A DNA stretch of 64,000 nucleotides from Pyrinomonas methylaliphatogenes (GTDB lineage: Bacteria > Acidobacteriota > Blastocatellia > Pyrinomonadales > Pyrinomonadaceae): the NCBI RefSeq assembly GCF_000820845.2, contig NZ_CBXV010000007.1, positions 248,082-312,081 on the forward strand, given 5' to 3'. Below are positions 50,409 through 58,075 of this stretch, piece by piece. The position numbers and the translations under genes were made by a program. Every line of letters begins with the position of its first letter. The stretch's first letter is position 1. The notes under the pieces were generated by a model. It had not been told where the DNA came from, did no database searches, and saw only the letters and a program-made list of their open reading frames with translations.

Positions 50409-52112
50409 TCATCCGCCGACCCCGGATATTATTTGAGCGATGAGGTCCCCGAGCAGTCCAAAAGCGGAGCGCGTGCGACGCGCGAGGCCATCTTCGACCA
50501 ACTCCGTTTCCGTTACGGCATATGCGTTTTTAGCGAAGATCCTCTCGGTCGTCGCAGCGTCAAAGGCATCGGACGCGAGCGTTCGAGCTATTCCGCGCGC
50601 GCGCTCGTTCTCTAGCGAATAAGTGACCATCATAGGTTGCGCCTTCGTTCGTCCGAGTGGCGAGTTCGCTTCGCGATAAGAAGGCTCATCGGCCAAGGTT
50701 CGGGTCGTAGCGCGAGCTTGTAAACAGCGACGCAGATGATCTTCCGGCCCCATAATCAGGTAGTCGTCGATGAAGCAGGCCGCGCGGCGTTTCGGGTCGA
50801 GCGGGACGAGCACTTCTACGCCCTCGACCGACACGCGCCGCACCGCGCCTAAGTAACGCCGCACTTCGGAGCGCAGTGCATCCTCATCGCGCGCGCGCGC
50901 GATGAGGATGCGCGTGCTATCCTCAGGCGATAGTTGTGCGGTGACTATCTCTGGACCAGCGGCGCGCAGGAAGTCGCGCGGCGATTCGATCCCATAGGGT
51001 TGCAGCGCGGCATCGAGAACGCGCCCGGCGAGCGGCGCGATTAAGGGGTCGAGCAATGAGGAGACGGCGCTCTTGACCCCATCCCACGCCGCGTTCGGAT
51101 CGCGATAGTTGTAACGGGTCATTTGATAGGTGTCCGAAGGCAACATCCTCTCCGCGCTATGGATCGGGTCGTCGGAGGGCGCGAGGGGAGCTTTTAAGCG
51201 TGCGGCCAGATCGCCGGGAAGCGCGAACAGGTAACGGTCTTCGACCTTCCCCGCGGCGGTGCGCATGCTCCAGGCCATATCTTGCAATGACTTTTCGGCA
51301 AGCTGCGGCAAGATGATGGCGGCCGCGCTCTGCACGCGCGGATTATCGAAAAGTTGCACGGCATAAGCGGTGGTGAGCAATCTCATAAGCTCATCAAGCC
51401 CCTGGGGCGAGACGTAGCCGAAAGCGAGAGAGTCTCGTCCTGCGACGCGCTGACGCATCTGCTCCAGACGAGCGTTTTCGCGCAAGCTCGCGCGCTCCCC
51501 GCGCTTTACAGCGAGACAGCTTTGGACGGTCGCCTCGTCGTTGCCGATGACGACGAGGCTGCCAGAGATTGCGGCGATGATCTGTCGATCACCTTTGGGC
51601 GCGATCCAGAGGATGGTCTCGCCCTCGCCGGTATAGCGTCGCTCGATCCGCGGCGCGCCGTAGACGCGGTGCGCGAGATCGCCGACCAACTCTTCTACAA
51701 CGCGCCGCGTTCGCCCTTCGTTCGTGTGAGTTTCGACGAGCAGTGCGGTATGCGGCCTGATGTTCAGCGCCTCCCGATCTTTGGATGTTTCCAGGCTGAG
51801 GACGACCAGGGCGACTTGTGAACGGGCTAGGACGACATCGCGCGCGCGCCCTAGACCGGTCCAGGCGATCAGCCCCTTCCAGCGCAGGAGATCCTTCAGC
51901 GCTGGGAAACCGTTCAGAATAGCGCCCCAAGAGTCGGTATCGGAAAGGCTCGCGATCAACCGCGGGGGATCGTCGATCTCGATGTAGATAAGCGCATCGC
52001 TTGGGGCATAAGCCGCCATTTGAACCGGACGCGGCCGATTCCACCACAGCCAGCCTCCGATGGCAGCTAGGATCAGAATCGCGGCGATGGCTAACCGTCT
52101 GCGTGACCGCAT
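50409..52112 (-). CDS. Anchored extracytoplasmic protein resembling DUF3352
   Basis: The 567-residue protein starts with an arginine-rich end and a single membrane helix (LAIAAILILAAIGGWLWW, about 7-24). The rest lies outside the inner membrane. AAYAPSDALIYIEIDDPPRLIASLSDTDSW near the start and repeated strand-helix units (GSLVVIGNDEATVQSCLAVKRG; DDYLIMGPEDHLRRCLQARATT) resemble the DUF3352 type, whose function is not established. No catalytic motif is seen. It ends close to the convergent 49.0-50.3 kb gene. Confidence 0.65.
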   Translation of the reverse strand: MRSRRRLAIAAILILAAIGGWLWWNRPRPVQMAAYAPSDALIYIEIDDPPRLIASLSDTDSWGAILNGFPALKDLLRWKGLIAWTGLGRARDVVLARSQVALVVLSLETSKDREALNIRPHTALLVETHTNEGRTRRVVEELVGDLAHRVYGAPRIERRYTGEGETILWIAPKGDRQIIAAISGSLVVIGNDEATVQSCLAVKRGERASLRENARLEQMRQRVAGRDSLAFGYVSPQGLDELMRLLTTAYAVQLFDNPRVQSAAAIILPQLAEKSLQDMAWSMRTAAGKVEDRYLFALPGDLAARLKAPLAPSDDPIHSAERMLPSDTYQMTRYNYRDPNAAWDGVKSAVSSLLDPLIAPLAGRVLDAALQPYGIESPRDFLRAAGPEIVTAQLSPEDSTRILIARARDEDALRSEVRRYLGAVRRVSVEGVEVLVPLDPKRRAACFIDDYLIMGPEDHLRRCLQARATTRTLADEPSYREANSPLGRTKAQPMMVTYSLENERARGIARTLASDAFDAATTERIFAKNAYAVTETELVEDGLARRTRSAFGLLGDLIAQIISGVGG

Positions 52113-52225
52113 GAACTAAGCATCCTAACTGTAGCGGCTTCGAAGGGCAAGGAGGCGAACGGACGCGCCCGGAGATTCAGCGCGGGGCGCGAGGCTCATA
52201 AATGTTCAAAATAACAAAATATTGA

Positions 52226-52254
52226 TTGACAAGTTTTAACTTGATGGGTATAGT
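52226..52254 (+). promoter_or_regulatory. Sigma-70 promoter of the pilMNOPQ leader
   Basis: TTGACA (52226-52231), a 17-bp spacer and TATAGT (52249-52254): a perfect -35 box and a five-of-six -10 box. Transcription from about 52261 would give a leader of roughly 430 bases before pilM, with the riboswitch aptamer about 80 bases in. Confidence 0.7.
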
Positions 52255-52340
52255 TGAGTGCGTTTGAGCGAGGGGGCGTGGCCTCTCCGCTCTTCATGTG
52301 GCGCATAACGCGAGCGCCGCCCGAGAAGCTTGGACGATAA

Positions 52341-52414
52341 AGGCACACCTCGCGCGAGCGGGGGTCGCAAAGCCGACGGGAGTCAAAACGGTTTTGACTT
52401 GGCCGGGTTGCCGA
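52341..52414 (+). promoter_or_regulatory. GEMM-I cyclic dinucleotide riboswitch in the pilM leader
   Basis: The stretch matches the GEMM-I (c-di-GMP-I) aptamer plan. The outer stem pairs GGCA (52342-52345) with TGCC (52409-52412). P2 is CCTCGC/GCGGGG closed by a GCGA tetraloop of the GNRA class. The hallmark CGCAAAGCC follows at 52366-52374, then GGG, a P3 hairpin (GTCAAAA-CG-GTTTTGAC) and GGCCGGGTTGCCG. The base before CACACC is G, as in c-di-GMP-selective members; 3',3'-cGAMP-selective ones carry A there. No clear terminator separates it from pilM, so the output mechanism is unknown. Confidence 0.85.
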
Positions 52415-52691
52415 AACGAGAAAGTGGTGGTGCGCGAAGCCCTGCTTTCGATCTCTGGACCTTGCCCCATCTTACTTCCCACACGACACAGCGCGCCTCC
52501 ACGTAAGACAGGCATCACCGAGGGCTTTTCGAGTCAATCGGTCCACGATCATTTTGAGTGAGCTGGTGGAAGCGCGAGGATGAAACCGCAAAGATCCGTT
52601 AGAGCGCGTCGAGCCTCCAGGATTCGGCGCGTGCGCGCGCGTCTTAGGCGTCTACGGCGTGCGGTCAAGCTTTCGAGGAGCAGATAGGTCT

Positions 52692-53759
52692 ATGTTCAGT
52701 TTCAAGAGGAGCATATCGCGCAAAGGATTGGTCGGTTTGGATATCGGTTCGAGCGCGATCAAAGCGGTCGAGCTACAGGGGCGCGCCAATCAGTTGAGCC
52801 TTGTCAATTTGGGATATGAGCCGCTTCAGCCTGACACGGTCGTTGACGGTCAGATCATGGAGTTGAACGCCGTCTCACAGACCATCGCCAAGCTCTTCGC
52901 TGTCAACCACATCAAAACGGACCGGGTGGTTGCGGGCGTGAGCGGCAGTTCGGTGATCGTCAAGAACATCGTCGTGCCGAAGATGACCGAAGAGGAGCTC
53001 GAAGAATCGATCGACTGGCATGCCGAAGAACACATCCCTTTCGACATCAACGACGTCAGCCTCGATTACCAAGTGGTCGGCGCAGGGGCGGACTCGCTCT
53101 TCGTGCTGATGGCGGCATGCAAGCGCGATTACGTCACAAATCGGCGGCAAGCGATCCAGCTTGCGGGCAAGCAGCCGGTCATCATCGATGTCGATGCGTT
53201 CGCGTTGCAGAACTGCTACGAGTTCAACTATCTGCCTGGTCCGGATCAGACGGTCGCGTTGCTCAACATCGGAGCTTCGACCATGAACATACAGATCGTG
53301 CGTGGCACGCGCAGCGTCTTCACGCGCGACGTCGGGCTCGGCGGCAATCAGTATACGGCGATGTTACAGCGCGATCTGGGTTTGACCTACGATCAAGCTG
53401 AATCGATCAAGCGGGGCAGTCCGCCGCCGGATGGCGTTGATGAGAAGCAGGTGCAGGGCGTGTTCGAACACGTTTCCGACACGCTCGCGCTCGAGGTTCA
53501 GAAGACTTTCGATTTCTATCGCGCGACGGCTGATGAGGGCGCATCTGTCGTGCAGAAGATCCTGCTGGCGGGCGGCGGTTCGAAGCTGAGCGGTTTGCGG
53601 GAGCATTTGGCGAATCGTTTCGGCATCCCCGTTGAGCCGTTCGATCCGTTCCGGCGCATCAAGTTCGACGCGCGACGCTTCGATCCCGATTACATGCGCG
53701 AACTCGTCCCCGAGATGGTCGTCGCCGTCGGTCTGGCGTTGCGTGGAGTGGAGGTTTGA
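52692..53759 (+). CDS. pilM: Type IV pilus assembly protein PilM
   Basis: About 355 residues from the ATG at 52692 (GAGGAG upstream; a GTG at 52659 is in frame). PilM is an actin-like cytoplasmic ATP-binding protein that docks the pilus alignment complex. Motifs: GLVGLDIGSSAIKAVEL (phosphate 1), NIGASTMNIQIVRG (phosphate 2) and KILLAGGGSKLSGL (adenosine), plus VPKMTEEELEESIDWHAEEHIPF. It starts the pilM-N-O-P-Q order and is preceded by the riboswitch. Confidence 0.95.
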   Translation: MFSFKRSISRKGLVGLDIGSSAIKAVELQGRANQLSLVNLGYEPLQPDTVVDGQIMELNAVSQTIAKLFAVNHIKTDRVVAGVSGSSVIVKNIVVPKMTEEELEESIDWHAEEHIPFDINDVSLDYQVVGAGADSLFVLMAACKRDYVTNRRQAIQLAGKQPVIIDVDAFALQNCYEFNYLPGPDQTVALLNIGASTMNIQIVRGTRSVFTRDVGLGGNQYTAMLQRDLGLTYDQAESIKRGSPPPDGVDEKQVQGVFEHVSDTLALEVQKTFDFYRATADEGASVVQKILLAGGGSKLSGLREHLANRFGIPVEPFDPFRRIKFDARRFDPDYMRELVPEMVVAVGLALRGVEV

Positions 53760-53760
53760 G

Positions 53761-54438
53761 ATGATCAGGATCAACCTTTTGAATTCGGTCACCGATCGAC
53801 CGCGGGGCGTTCAAGCCATCGAAACGCGGGTGGCGCAGGGGCCGACGCAAACCTACTTGATGTTGATCGTCATCGGCGCGCTCCTGCTTTTGGGCATGGG
53901 GTTCGATCTCATGAGCGCGCGCGCGCGCCGTGCCGATGCGCAAGCTGAACTCGATCGTCAACGGCAGATCGCCGCTCAGATGGCGAGCATCAAGAAAGAG
54001 CAGGCCGAACTCGAAAAGAAGATCAAGGAGATCGAGGCGCGCATCGAAGCGATCCGGAAATTGCGCGCTTCGCAGCAGGGGCCGGTCGCCGTGCTTTCGG
54101 CCATCAACGAGCGATTGCCGCTTATGGGGGCGTTCCGTCTCGATTCGATCGAGCAGAAGGGCAGCGAACTCGTCATCCGGGGCGATTCGCCAAGCGAAGC
54201 TGCCGTCACGCAGTTCGGGCGCAGCCTCGAATTTTCGGGCGGGCTGTTTAGCAATGTGAACATCGAGACGCAGCGTAAGGCTCTGGAAGTGCCGGCCTCG
54301 ACGAACGGCGCCGGAAAGGTGGTCCAGAAGCCTGAGACCGTCACCTTCACCATCAAGTGTCAGTACACTCCACCGCAAGCTCCGACGGCGAATTCGGCTA
54401 ACAACCAGAGCGCTGCCGGGCAGATCGCGCAGAAGTGA
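53761..54438 (+). CDS. pilN: Type IV pilus assembly protein PilN
   Basis: About 225 residues from the ATG directly after the pilM stop. The N-terminal MIRINLLNSV is the PilN motif that binds PilM. A membrane helix (TYLMLIVIGALLLLGMGFDL, about 31-50) and a coiled coil (AQMASIKKEQAELEKKIKEIEARIEAIRKL) follow, then a periplasmic ferredoxin-like domain. PilN pairs with PilO in the inner-membrane alignment complex. Confidence 0.93.
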   Translation: MIRINLLNSVTDRPRGVQAIETRVAQGPTQTYLMLIVIGALLLLGMGFDLMSARARRADAQAELDRQRQIAAQMASIKKEQAELEKKIKEIEARIEAIRKLRASQQGPVAVLSAINERLPLMGAFRLDSIEQKGSELVIRGDSPSEAAVTQFGRSLEFSGGLFSNVNIETQRKALEVPASTNGAGKVVQKPETVTFTIKCQYTPPQAPTANSANNQSAAGQIAQK

Positions 54439-54450
54439 GGGGAGGGAGCG

Positions 54451-55083
54451 ATGGGCAGATTCAAGAAGATCCTCTGTGTGCCTTGGTATAAGCAGCTTGT
54501 CATCTTCAGCCTTGTCGCATTGCTCATCTATGGTGCGTTCCGCTACTTCGTCACGCAGAGCACGTGGGACGAGGCGGAGAATTTGCGCGCGCAGGCCGAG
54601 CAGTTGCGACGCGAGAACGCTTTAGCGCAGATCGCTTCGCAACGCATCAACGAATTCCGCGCCGCTTATGCGCGCGCCGAGGCCGATTACGCCGATCTGA
54701 AGGCGTTGCTGCCCGAGCAGCGGGAATTGACCAATGTGTTGGATGGGTTGTTGCGAAACGCGCGCGGGCGTTTGATCGTGCGCCGGTTCACGCCGAAAGA
54801 TGACATCAATCAAGATTTCTATTCGGGCAAACCGATCGAAGTCGAGGTTTCGGGCAGTTACAACAACCTCGGCAATTTCTTCGCCGATATGGCGACCTAT
54901 CATCGAATCGTTTCGATCACGGACTTCCGCATCATGTCTGCCCCTGAGCAGGCGAGCGGACGGACGATCGATGCGCAGTTCTTGTTGACGGCTTACTATG
55001 TCTCCCCCGAGCGTTTGCAGCAAGCCGTCTCCATTCAGAAACAACCGAATCAAACGCCGCCCGCCGCCGCGGGAGCGCGTTAA
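54451..55083 (+). CDS. pilO: Type IV pilus assembly protein PilO
   Basis: The 210-residue protein has one membrane helix (QLVIFSLVALLIYGAFRYFV, about 13-32), a coiled coil (AENLRAQAEQLRRENALAQIA), and a periplasmic domain with LLPEQRELTNVLDGLLRNARGRLI and VEVSGSYNNLGNFFADMATYHRIVSITDF, a typical PilO signature. It forms heterodimers with PilN. It lies 12 bases after pilN. Confidence 0.94.
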   Translation: MGRFKKILCVPWYKQLVIFSLVALLIYGAFRYFVTQSTWDEAENLRAQAEQLRRENALAQIASQRINEFRAAYARAEADYADLKALLPEQRELTNVLDGLLRNARGRLIVRRFTPKDDINQDFYSGKPIEVEVSGSYNNLGNFFADMATYHRIVSITDFRIMSAPEQASGRTIDAQFLLTAYYVSPERLQQAVSIQKQPNQTPPAAAGAR

Positions 55084-55098
55084 CGGAGGGATGAAGTG

Positions 55099-55701
55099 AT
55101 GGGCGATCGGCTCAAGTTTTCTCCGTTCGTGTTGGCGATCTCTCTTGGATTCGCCTGCCTCGCATCGGCACAGCAGGCCAGTTCGGTCTATCGTCCCACC
55201 TCGCGCGATCCGTTCGTCAAATACAAACCGCGCACCGTCGAAGGTCTGATCAAGCGCGCCCCGACCGTCGTCGAACCGCCTGCGTTGCAGGAGCGCATCG
55301 AACAGTACAAGGCGCGCAAACTTGCGGCGATGCAACAGCAGCAGCCGGCGCCGAAACCGACCTCCGCCTTTCTGCTCAGCGAGCTTCAGGTGATCGGCAT
55401 CTTCCGCACTCCGCGCGGTTATGCGGCGATGGTCGAAGCGACGCCCATCAAGCTCTCTTACGTCGTCTACCCCGGAGAGCTCTTCTTCGATGGGCAGCTG
55501 GTCGCGGTCGAAGAGAACCGTTTGATCTTCAGGCGCGAGAAGCGCTGGAGCGATGGCCGGCGCGAATGGGTGGTCGAGATGAAACCCTTGCGTCAACCCG
55601 ATGCGGTCACAGAGGCTTTAACGGCAAGCAAGGCTCAGGCCGAAAAAGAACCGGTCAAGAGCGATGAGGGGAAGGAAGAGAAGAAGTCGCCTTCGAGATA
55701 G
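55099..55701 (+). CDS. pilP: Type IV pilus assembly protein PilP
   Basis: About 200 residues from the ATG at 55099, preceded by GGAGG. A signal-like hydrophobic start (SPFVLAISLGFACLASAQ) without a clear lipobox is followed by a flexible stretch and the beta-rich PilP domain (LSELQVIGIFRTPRGYAAMVEATPIKLSYVVYPGELFFDGQLVAVEENRLIFRR). PilP links PilN/PilO to the secretin. Most PilP proteins are lipoproteins; this one may simply be periplasmic. The C-terminus is Lys/Glu-rich. Confidence 0.87.
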   Translation: MGDRLKFSPFVLAISLGFACLASAQQASSVYRPTSRDPFVKYKPRTVEGLIKRAPTVVEPPALQERIEQYKARKLAAMQQQQPAPKPTSAFLLSELQVIGIFRTPRGYAAMVEATPIKLSYVVYPGELFFDGQLVAVEENRLIFRREKRWSDGRREWVVEMKPLRQPDAVTEALTASKAQAEKEPVKSDEGKEEKKSPSR

Positions 55702-55853
55702 CTGACGAATAAACCTCGTTGTTTTTCCACGCACAGCACTTCGGTCGAATCGATCCGCGCATCGTGCGGCGCGCGCTCAAAGATGGATCGCGCGATTCAA
55801 ACGGGCGTGAGCGCGCGGCGGGTCGTTCGACACGTCGTTGAAGGATGAGACAG

Positions 55854-57638
55854 ATGAACGAGAACAGAACGCAACTTTCGAGTCTGACGCCAAAAGGTCC
55901 GCTCGTCCTTTTGCTGATCTATGCGCTTATCGTCTCCAATGGCGCGCTCTACGCTCAAGTGCGAGTCGAACGCGGCGCGTCGCAAAGCGCGACGCCGCAG
56001 ACGCAAGGGCAGCGTTATGGGCAGCCCGGCTTCGTCGGCGAACCGATCAACCTGAACGTCGTCAATGCCGATATCCGCGATATTTTGAACTACATCACCG
56101 AGCAGTACGGCGTTAACTTCGTCATCGACAAATCAGTCGGCGCGGTACCCGTGACGGTCAATGTCACCGACGTTCCGTGGAACATCGCGCTCGATGCCAT
56201 CTTGCGCGCCAATCGGTTGGGGATCGAGATCAACGGCAACATCCTGCGCGTCGCCACGCAAGAGACGCTCGCGGCAGAAGCCGCGACGCAGGAGAAGATA
56301 CGCGAGGCGCAGTTGGACGCCGCTCCGCTCGTCACTGAATTCATCCGGTTGAACTATGCGCGCGCCGTCGGCACGCTCGGCCAAGCGGCGGGGGCGGCTG
56401 GCGGTTTCGTCGGAGGCAGCGTTTCCGGCCCATCCTTTAGCGGCGCCGGCGGGGCCGATCAGGGCATCCTGCCGATCATCCAACGCCGTTTGTCGCGCCG
56501 TGGCAGCATCGAGGTCGATGGGCGCAGCAATACGTTGATCGTCACCGACGTCAAAGAGAACATCGAGGCGATTCGCCAGTTGGTCTCATTGCTGGACCAG
56601 CCCGAGCCGCAGGTCGAAATCGAAGTGCGGATCGTGATCGCGAGCCGGAACTTCAGCCGCGACTTGGGCGTGCAATTGGCGGCTGTCGCTCTTAACAACA
56701 GCCGCGGTGCGGGAGGATCGTTTAGCACTTTGCCCGCCCCGCAAAGCAGCCAAGGCGGACAGACGGGGAACCAGGCGCAGCTCAATCGGTTCGGCATCCC
56801 GAGCGGCATCGGACCTCAGCCCGCCAACTCGCTCGGCGCGCTCGGCGCCAGCACCGTCATCGGGTTGACCACAGGGGCGATCGGGACGGCGCAGATCACG
56901 GCGCTGCTTACCGCTGCCGAGCAGAAGGGACAGGCGAAGATCGTCGCGACGCCGCGTGTTACGACGCTCAACAACCGACCGGCCCAGATCGAAAGCGGTT
57001 CGCAGATCCCAGTCGTCACGCCGCAAGGCGGCGCAGCCATCGGCGGCGCGCTCGTCTTCACGACGACCTTCGTCTCCGTCCCGCTGCGTCTATCCGTCAC
57101 GCCGCAGATCACCGACGCGGGAACGGTCGTCTTGCGCATCGTCGCCGAAAAGAACAGCGTCAACTTGACGTTCACGAACGCCACGGGGACGCCCGGCATA
57201 GATACGCAGCGGATGCAGACGGAAGTGCTCGTGCCTGATGGCGGGACGACCGTCGTCGGCGGCGTGCTCGATGATACGGAGACCGAAAACCAGTCGCGCA
57301 CGCCGGGGCTTTCGAGCATCCCCGTGCTCGGCAATCTCTTCAAGCGGCGCGCGACGACGCGCACGACGAACGAGATCCTCTTCTTCATCACGCCGCGCAT
57401 CTATCGGCCGGACTATCAGGGGCGCCCGATGGCCGTGCAACCTGCGACTGGCACTCGTTCGGTGACGATCCCGCAACCGGTGCCGCTCGGCAATCCGCCG
57501 ACCAATACGCCGGTTCCGACGGCACAGCCGAGCCTGCCGACGCCGGGCGTGCCGCAATTGGTGTTGCCTGTGCCGACTGGACCAGTCGAAGCGCAACCGA
57601 CGGCCCGTCCCGAGTCGAGCACATCGCCGCGGCCATAG
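55854..57638 (+). CDS. pilQ: Type IV pilus secretin PilQ
   Basis: About 594 residues from the ATG at 55854 (AAGG 9 bases upstream; an ATG at 55845 is in frame). A signal peptide (GPLVLLLIYALIVSNGALYAQ) is followed by an STN/N0 domain (INLNVVNADIRDILNYITEQYGVNFVID), N1-type domains with Gly-rich inserts, and the secretin channel (VEIEVRIVIASRNFSRDLGVQL, QAKIVATPRVTTLNNRPAQIESGSQIP, VLVPDGGTTVVGGVL, LFKRRATTRTTNEILFFITPRI). A proline-rich tail of about 50 residues is unusual. The AMIN domains seen in many PilQ proteins are not evident. It forms the outer-membrane pore for the pilus. Confidence 0.95.
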   Translation: MNENRTQLSSLTPKGPLVLLLIYALIVSNGALYAQVRVERGASQSATPQTQGQRYGQPGFVGEPINLNVVNADIRDILNYITEQYGVNFVIDKSVGAVPVTVNVTDVPWNIALDAILRANRLGIEINGNILRVATQETLAAEAATQEKIREAQLDAAPLVTEFIRLNYARAVGTLGQAAGAAGGFVGGSVSGPSFSGAGGADQGILPIIQRRLSRRGSIEVDGRSNTLIVTDVKENIEAIRQLVSLLDQPEPQVEIEVRIVIASRNFSRDLGVQLAAVALNNSRGAGGSFSTLPAPQSSQGGQTGNQAQLNRFGIPSGIGPQPANSLGALGASTVIGLTTGAIGTAQITALLTAAEQKGQAKIVATPRVTTLNNRPAQIESGSQIPVVTPQGGAAIGGALVFTTTFVSVPLRLSVTPQITDAGTVVLRIVAEKNSVNLTFTNATGTPGIDTQRMQTEVLVPDGGTTVVGGVLDDTETENQSRTPGLSSIPVLGNLFKRRATTRTTNEILFFITPRIYRPDYQGRPMAVQPATGTRSVTIPQPVPLGNPPTNTPVPTAQPSLPTPGVPQLVLPVPTGPVEAQPTARPESSTSPRP

Positions 57639-57709: not shown

Positions 57710-58075
57710 ATGTTCAAAGAGAAACTGAGCGAGATCATCGAGCGAACGGATGGCGCGCTCGCCGCCGTCATCATGGGGACGGATGGGATAGAAGTCGAAA
57801 AAGTCCTGCGCCCCGAAGGGCGGGAGCTCAATCTCGATGTCGCCGCTGCAACCTTCACCTCGCTTGTGCGTAGCGCACAGGTGATCGGTCGTGAGATCAA
57901 CTTGGGCCAGGAGCGAGAACTGCTCGTCGCCTTCGATCATGTGACGATCTGCGCGCGTTTGCTCAGTCGCGATTACTTCGTGATGCTCGCCGTCGCGCCC
58001 GATGGCAATCTCGGTCGCGGTCGTTTCGAGCTGCGCAAAGCGGAACTCGAATTGGCTCACGAGTTCGCTCTCTGA
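57710..58075 (+). CDS. Roadblock/LC7-domain protein (MglB-like)
   Basis: The 121-residue protein fits a single roadblock/LC7 fold: FKEKLSEIIERTDGALAAVIMGTDGIEVEKVL, ATFTSLVRSAQVIGREINLGQERELLVAFDHVTICARLLSRDYFVMLAVAP and a C-terminal helix. The best-known bacterial member, MglB, is the activating protein of the MglA GTPase that sets cell polarity and pilus position. No MglA-type GTPase gene is adjacent. Location straight after pilQ suggests a role in pilus placement or assembly. A strong hairpin precedes it. Confidence 0.82.
   Translation: MFKEKLSEIIERTDGALAAVIMGTDGIEVEKVLRPEGRELNLDVAAATFTSLVRSAQVIGREINLGQERELLVAFDHVTICARLLSRDYFVMLAVAPDGNLGRGRFELRKAELELAHEFAL

Follow-up and report, generated by a model that had tools for sequence, protein, structure and literature searches.

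A GEMM-I riboswitch with a c-di-GMP signature in the leader of the pilMNOPQ operon of Pyrinomonas methylaliphatogenes

In Pyrinomonas methylaliphatogenes, the leader ahead of pilMNOPQ contains a class I c-di-GMP (GEMM-I) riboswitch, which probably ties synthesis of the pilus assembly machinery to this second messenger. The riboswitch itself is confirmed, with aptamer, fold and c-di-GMP signature all present in the window, the 64,000-nucleotide stretch of DNA analysed here. Judged from sequence, control of pilMNOPQ in answer to c-di-GMP is its most likely function. P. methylaliphatogenes is a bacterium of hot soils. Strain K22T is a non-motile thermophile of the Acidobacteriota with an optimum of 65 °C (PMC4644332). 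A preliminary description of this DNA had mentioned GEMM switches upstream of pilus genes in Geobacter, and a pilM GEMM switch has indeed been published from that genus (PMC9262584, PMC6456294); what is new is its place in another phylum. A search of the open literature, with subscription journals outside its scope, found no c-di-GMP riboswitch described at pilM in Acidobacteriota.

The pilMNOPQ target named in the preliminary description holds; pilM, pilN, pilO and pilQ are recognized by Pfam, and an unmatched gene occupies the pilP position (Table 1). Within the pil cluster, pilQ is followed by an ORF of 121 amino acids (57710-58075), for which Pfam and NCBIfam models gave no match and which appears roadblock-like by eye.

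Table 1. Features of the pilMNOPQ leader and operon, in window coordinates
Feature	Position	Strand	Basis
Conserved element upstream of -35	52204..52221	+	24-leader alignment; GTTAAAC..CAAAATA in relatives, GTTCAAAATAACAAAATA here
Sigma-70 promoter TTGACA-17-TATAGT	52226..52254	+	11/12 consensus matches; in every clade leader long enough
c-di-GMP-I (GEMM-I) riboswitch aptamer	52332..52415	+	RF01051, 52.7 bits; covariation
G20, ligand-discriminating base (A in cGAMP type)	52342	+	Alignment; PMC6456294
P2, GCGA tetraloop	52348..52363	+	Strands 52348-52353/52358-52363; covariation
A47 (G in Rfam GGC variant)	52369	+	Model comparison
P3, without CUAA/UAUG tetraloop receptor of Rfam consensus	52371..52409	+	Model match; covariation
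C92, Watson-Crick partner of the ligand	52411	+	Numbering presumably as in known c-di-GMP-I structures
C-over-G leader segment, candidate Rho loading region	52431..52560	+	Composition
Arginine-rich small ORF, 35 codons, MKPQRSVRARRASRIRRVRARLRRLRRAVKLSRSR*	52580..52687	+	Codon-position and synonymous-substitution test; relatives
Shine-Dalgarno of pilM, GAGGAG, within small ORF	52675..52680	+	Sequence; conserved in relatives
pilM	52692..53759	+	PF11104, E 5e-74; TIGR01175
pilN	53755..54438	+	PF05137
pilO	54451..55083	+	PF04350
Gene in pilP position	55096..55701	+	Operon order; no family match
pilQ, secretin	55845..57638	+	PF00263

Identity and fold of the aptamer

A cmscan search of the whole window returned three matches above cut-off, namely RNase P RNA, a tRNA and c-di-GMP-I (RF01051). 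The last corresponds to the GEMM-I riboswitch previously placed at 52341-52414; it lies on the forward strand at 52332-52415, covers the model at full length (1-87/87) and scores 52.7 bits (E 1.9e-7) against a gathering cut-off of 35 bits, so that the covariance search proposed as a check on the riboswitch is significant. When the whole genome (G000; 3,788,560 bases, 16 contigs) is taken as the search space, the pilM aptamer ranks second of three matches, with an E value of 2.7e-9.

The GNRA-capped P2 and the P3 hairpin noticed earlier are both recovered, the former with a GCGA loop, and both helices covary. Among 24 related aptamers, 99.6% of cells are standard pairs and seven pairs are altered on both sides; slid controls collapse to 23-47%, and the covariation score was reached by no shuffle. 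The junction motif CGCAAAGCC lies at 52366-52374, and the inner pairing joins G52343-C52344 with G52367-C52368. The "closing GGCA/TGCC pairing" of the preliminary description, by contrast, is no helix of the folded aptamer; G52342 (G20) and C52411 (C92, a number that we take from known c-di-GMP-I structures) are in contact with the ligand. Beyond these bases lies the outer helix P1a, for which 52329-52332 with 52417-52420 is a candidate.

In comparison with the RF01051 family, the aptamer shares the full-length match, the residues G20, A47 and C92, the CGCAAAGCC junction, the GNRA-capped P2 and P3, but its P3 lacks the CUAA/UAUG receptor, which is a common rather than a defining feature of the consensus, and position 24 is C instead of A (GCACA) in all 24 pilM copies. 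Assignment to the GGC variant, c-di-GMP-I-GGC (RF03167), was rejected: the raw score is nearly equal (52.3 bits) and the tetraloop receptor is absent in both, but the score falls below the cut-off of 59 for that model, whose consensus has G where the window has A47.

Conservation at pilM among relatives

The 80 nearest PilM loci from the genomes of related species were compared. At the Rfam threshold, 23 of them have a GEMM aptamer upstream of pilM: 14 among the 20 closest loci, 9 among the 20 that follow and none among the remaining 40. At one locus (L035), the GGC model gives the aptamer its best score. A custom model built from 24 aptamers adds two weak, decayed copies (L060 and L068) and a divergent copy at L015, which belongs to another family of the class. 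The decayed aptamers (L060:1745-1872, L068:312-443) still stand at pilM, with their junction motifs broken. The 26 GEMM rows of the PilM tree all belong to a single 38-row clade (support 100/100), and GEMM presence requires 5 state changes compared with 22 in shuffles. A single gain followed by several losses would be the simplest reading of this pattern. The loss or decay of the aptamer in several relatives indicates that it is not essential for pilM.

The near-consensus promoter and long leader of the preliminary description were likewise found, with pilM beginning 276 nt past the aptamer. Promoter-like sites number two in the 1.7-kb region, against 0.5 expected from shuffles, and the spacing from promoter to aptamer is approximately 75 nt. 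The TTGACA promoter occurs in 39/39 leaders long enough (the window and L033-L072) and precedes the aptamer in every GEMM leader. Relatives devoid of the aptamer retain the promoter, mostly with a shorter leader, as in L058, where it stands at -259 compared with -441 in its relative L059; the exception is L043, in which the promoter lies at -508 and no aptamer can be recognised. This layout, together with the shorter leaders of GEMM-less relatives that keep the promoter, makes the aptamer most likely part of the pilM transcript, and control of pilM is very likely because placement and promoter are conserved in the clade. The conserved element upstream of -35 is possibly an UP element or an activator site. 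The gene on the opposite side (50409-52112, minus strand) is divergent.

Other GEMM aptamers

Another GEMM copy in this genome (L001; G000:C6:298232-298316) precedes the gene of a secreted beta-helix-like protein, and CAP-domain-like genes, identified by eye from translations, follow GEMMs in relatives. In L001, L020, L022-L027 and L029, the P1a 3' strand is itself the Shine-Dalgarno sequence (GTGAGGT) of the beta-helix- or CAP-like gene; it pairs with AACCTT or CTTCAC, and the aptamer ends 9-16 nt ahead of the start codon. By their sequences, these copies look like translational switches, unlike the pilM copy. Tandem or triple aptamers a few hundred bases apart were also observed in relatives (G011:C107, G007:C212, G015:C514 and G119:C198).

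Arginine-rich small ORF

A previously unremarked small ORF lies immediately before pilM, its stop 4 nt ahead of the pilM start, and arginine-rich ORFs (RARxxRARLRR) occur at the same place in most clade relatives (L033-L069), with the aptamer present or absent. With columns aligned as DNA, third-position divergence is 0.67 compared with 0.33/0.31, and the synonymous share of differing codons is 54% compared with 9% and 6% in shifted frames; this substitution pattern makes the ORF very likely coding. No match to it was found among Pfam and NCBIfam models. Its product could act as a leader peptide or be a small protein associated with the pilus. The end of the ORF encodes the pilM Shine-Dalgarno sequence, and pilM translation would be coupled to the ORF. 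A longer ORF reaching from the aptamer to the arginine-rich core was rejected: it is open in L034, L039, L056, L059 and L069 and broken in others, and it has no codon-position bias, save weakly in L056/L059.

Leader composition and mode of output

The distance from the aptamer to pilM (approximately 246-343 nt in relatives) includes 164 nt before the small ORF, and the post-aptamer stretch is noncoding in most relatives. Its composition is C-rich and G-poor in 24/24 leaders (mean C-G +0.15), while the corresponding values upstream of the aptamer and within pilM are about 0. GEMM leaders average +0.149 against +0.063 in GEMM-less pilM leaders, with p 2e-9 against all of the latter and p 1e-4 against the near ones, these being related, non-independent sequences. 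The window leader's own mean is +0.07, near the GEMM-less mean, and only its best segment stands out, a 78-nt stretch of 52431-52560 that belongs to the top 0.6% of all window segments for C over G. The fold of the post-aptamer leader is not better than that of shuffles. The preliminary description saw no obvious terminator, and a forward-strand search of the window leader also found no intrinsic terminator; none was found in 17/24 leaders, and those in the remaining leaders are not shared. Rho is encoded in the genome.

By its composition, the C-rich stretch fits a Rho loading region. With no intrinsic terminator found and the aptamer 276 nt from pilM, output through a Rho-dependent stop in the C-rich leader is tentatively taken as the most likely mode. 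The folded aptamer would set how often Rho stops RNA polymerase within the untranslated, C-rich stretch that precedes the small ORF and pilM. The Geobacter pilM switch, taken as a guide, somewhat favours activation in the presence of ligand. A comparable layout is known from the pe20 Mbox leader of Mycobacterium tuberculosis, in which a conserved uORF and Rho-dependent termination were established by experiment (PMC12810186). Both leaders combine an aptamer, a pyrimidine-rich leader and a conserved small ORF before the operon, and Rho is invoked in both; however, aptamer and ligand are unrelated, the likeness is one of architecture, and Rho is demonstrated there and suggested here.

A translational output, in which a P1a-dependent leader helix masks or exposes the start site of either the small ORF or pilM and Rho is not involved, is possible though doubtful. 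The overlap of the small ORF with the pilM Shine-Dalgarno sequence would suit it, as would the CAP-domain and beta-helix copies of the family, with GTGAGGT in the P1a 3' strand and the start codon close behind the aptamer; since L001 looks translational, the pilM output could be so too, by a route not found here. Against this stand the distances from the aptamer to pilM and to the small ORF, and the alignment of 24 leaders showed no conserved pairing with the start of the small ORF. In several relatives the 3' end of the aptamer (CCGAAG..) seemed, by eye, to form a striking competing helix with the leader, but this pairing was rejected as no better than in dinucleotide shuffles (Fisher p 0.057, with non-independent sequences).

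A noncanonical intrinsic terminator in the leader is improbable. The closest known example, the pilM riboswitch of Geobacter metallireducens, is a GEMM-Ib RNA that binds cGAMP and acts as an ON switch through such a terminator (PMC9262584), but a terminator-like element is absent from the window leader and from the 17 leaders noted above, and the competing pairing is not significant.

Ligand and second-messenger enzymes

The pilM aptamer very probably binds c-di-GMP. Its discriminating base is G, as first read, and the pocket (G at 52342, A at 52369, C at 52411) carries the c-di-GMP signature. The cGAMP riboswitches (GEMM-Ib) are marked by A20, a base that this aptamer lacks. In a Geobacter GEMM-Ib RNA, the A20G substitution shifts selectivity from cGAMP to c-di-GMP (PMC6456294), and this shift, together with G20, A47 and C92, makes c-di-GMP the best guess. 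The genome encodes eight GGDEF domains, from which it follows that the cell can make c-di-GMP; seven of the eight have the Asp of GHxxGD and one has Ser (L137 / L159, G000:C4:393316-393783). Ser at this position is presumably the mark of Hypr (cGAMP-making) enzymes, an assignment that draws on the GGDEF alignment and on GacA S347 constructs. The constructs have been published (PMC6456294). Given the one Ser-type domain, cGAMP may exist in the P. methylaliphatogenes cell.

Binding of 3',3'-cGAMP, or of both dinucleotides, instead of c-di-GMP appears quite improbable. Geobacter pilM switches bind cGAMP (PMC9262584), the Ser-type GGDEF is encoded here, and the orthologous pilM switch L069 has A20; on the other side, this aptamer has G20, A20G makes a cGAMP switch selective for c-di-GMP (PMC6456294), and Asp is kept in the other seven GGDEF domains. 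L069 (L069:2617-2717, the same locus as L030, genome G026) is the only one of the 24 pilM aptamers with A20, and its congener L039 (genome G077) carries a pilM aptamer with G20, so that a change of ligand may have taken place inside a single genus. A tie between the A20 switch of G026 and an extra Ser-type GGDEF was rejected, as the G20 congener G077 also has two such domains; with two in each genome, no simple link to the enzyme set is seen.

Two MshEN domains were observed in the genome (G000:C5:193421-193684 and G000:C8:294553-294807). MshEN domains are of a c-di-GMP-binding type found on pilus ATPases, through which c-di-GMP may also act directly on the pilus motor.

That the aptamer is a chance or decayed look-alike devoid of function is scarcely credible: L060 and L068 have decayed copies and other relatives have lost theirs, but the score lies well over the cut-off, changes are compensatory, the pocket is invariant, and place and promoter are conserved.

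Comparison with Geobacter and implications

Both the present riboswitch and that of G. metallireducens (PMC9262584) are GEMM-I aptamers in a pilM operon leader. The Geobacter switch responds to cGAMP and turns expression ON by way of an intrinsic terminator in which the 3' strand of the aptamer takes part, whereas the leader described here has a c-di-GMP signature, no intrinsic terminator, a longer C-rich leader and a small ORF, and belongs to another phylum. In G. sulfurreducens, deletion of the cGAMP cyclase GacA lowers pilMNOP genes 2-3 fold (PMC6456294). A fuller scheme of two-stage control, in which c-di-GMP would gate Rho termination, leader-peptide translation would gate pilM, and the ligand would have changed within the clade from G20 to A20 with the operon kept, is speculative and rather unlikely as a whole.

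The finding would extend RNA-level control by c-di-GMP over genes of pilus assembly to the Acidobacteriota, and to a type strain that has been described. It suggests that two distant phyla both control pilM by riboswitch, each with a different second messenger. The clade, in which the aptamer is present, decayed, lost or of the A20 type, constitutes a natural series for testing the role of the switch.
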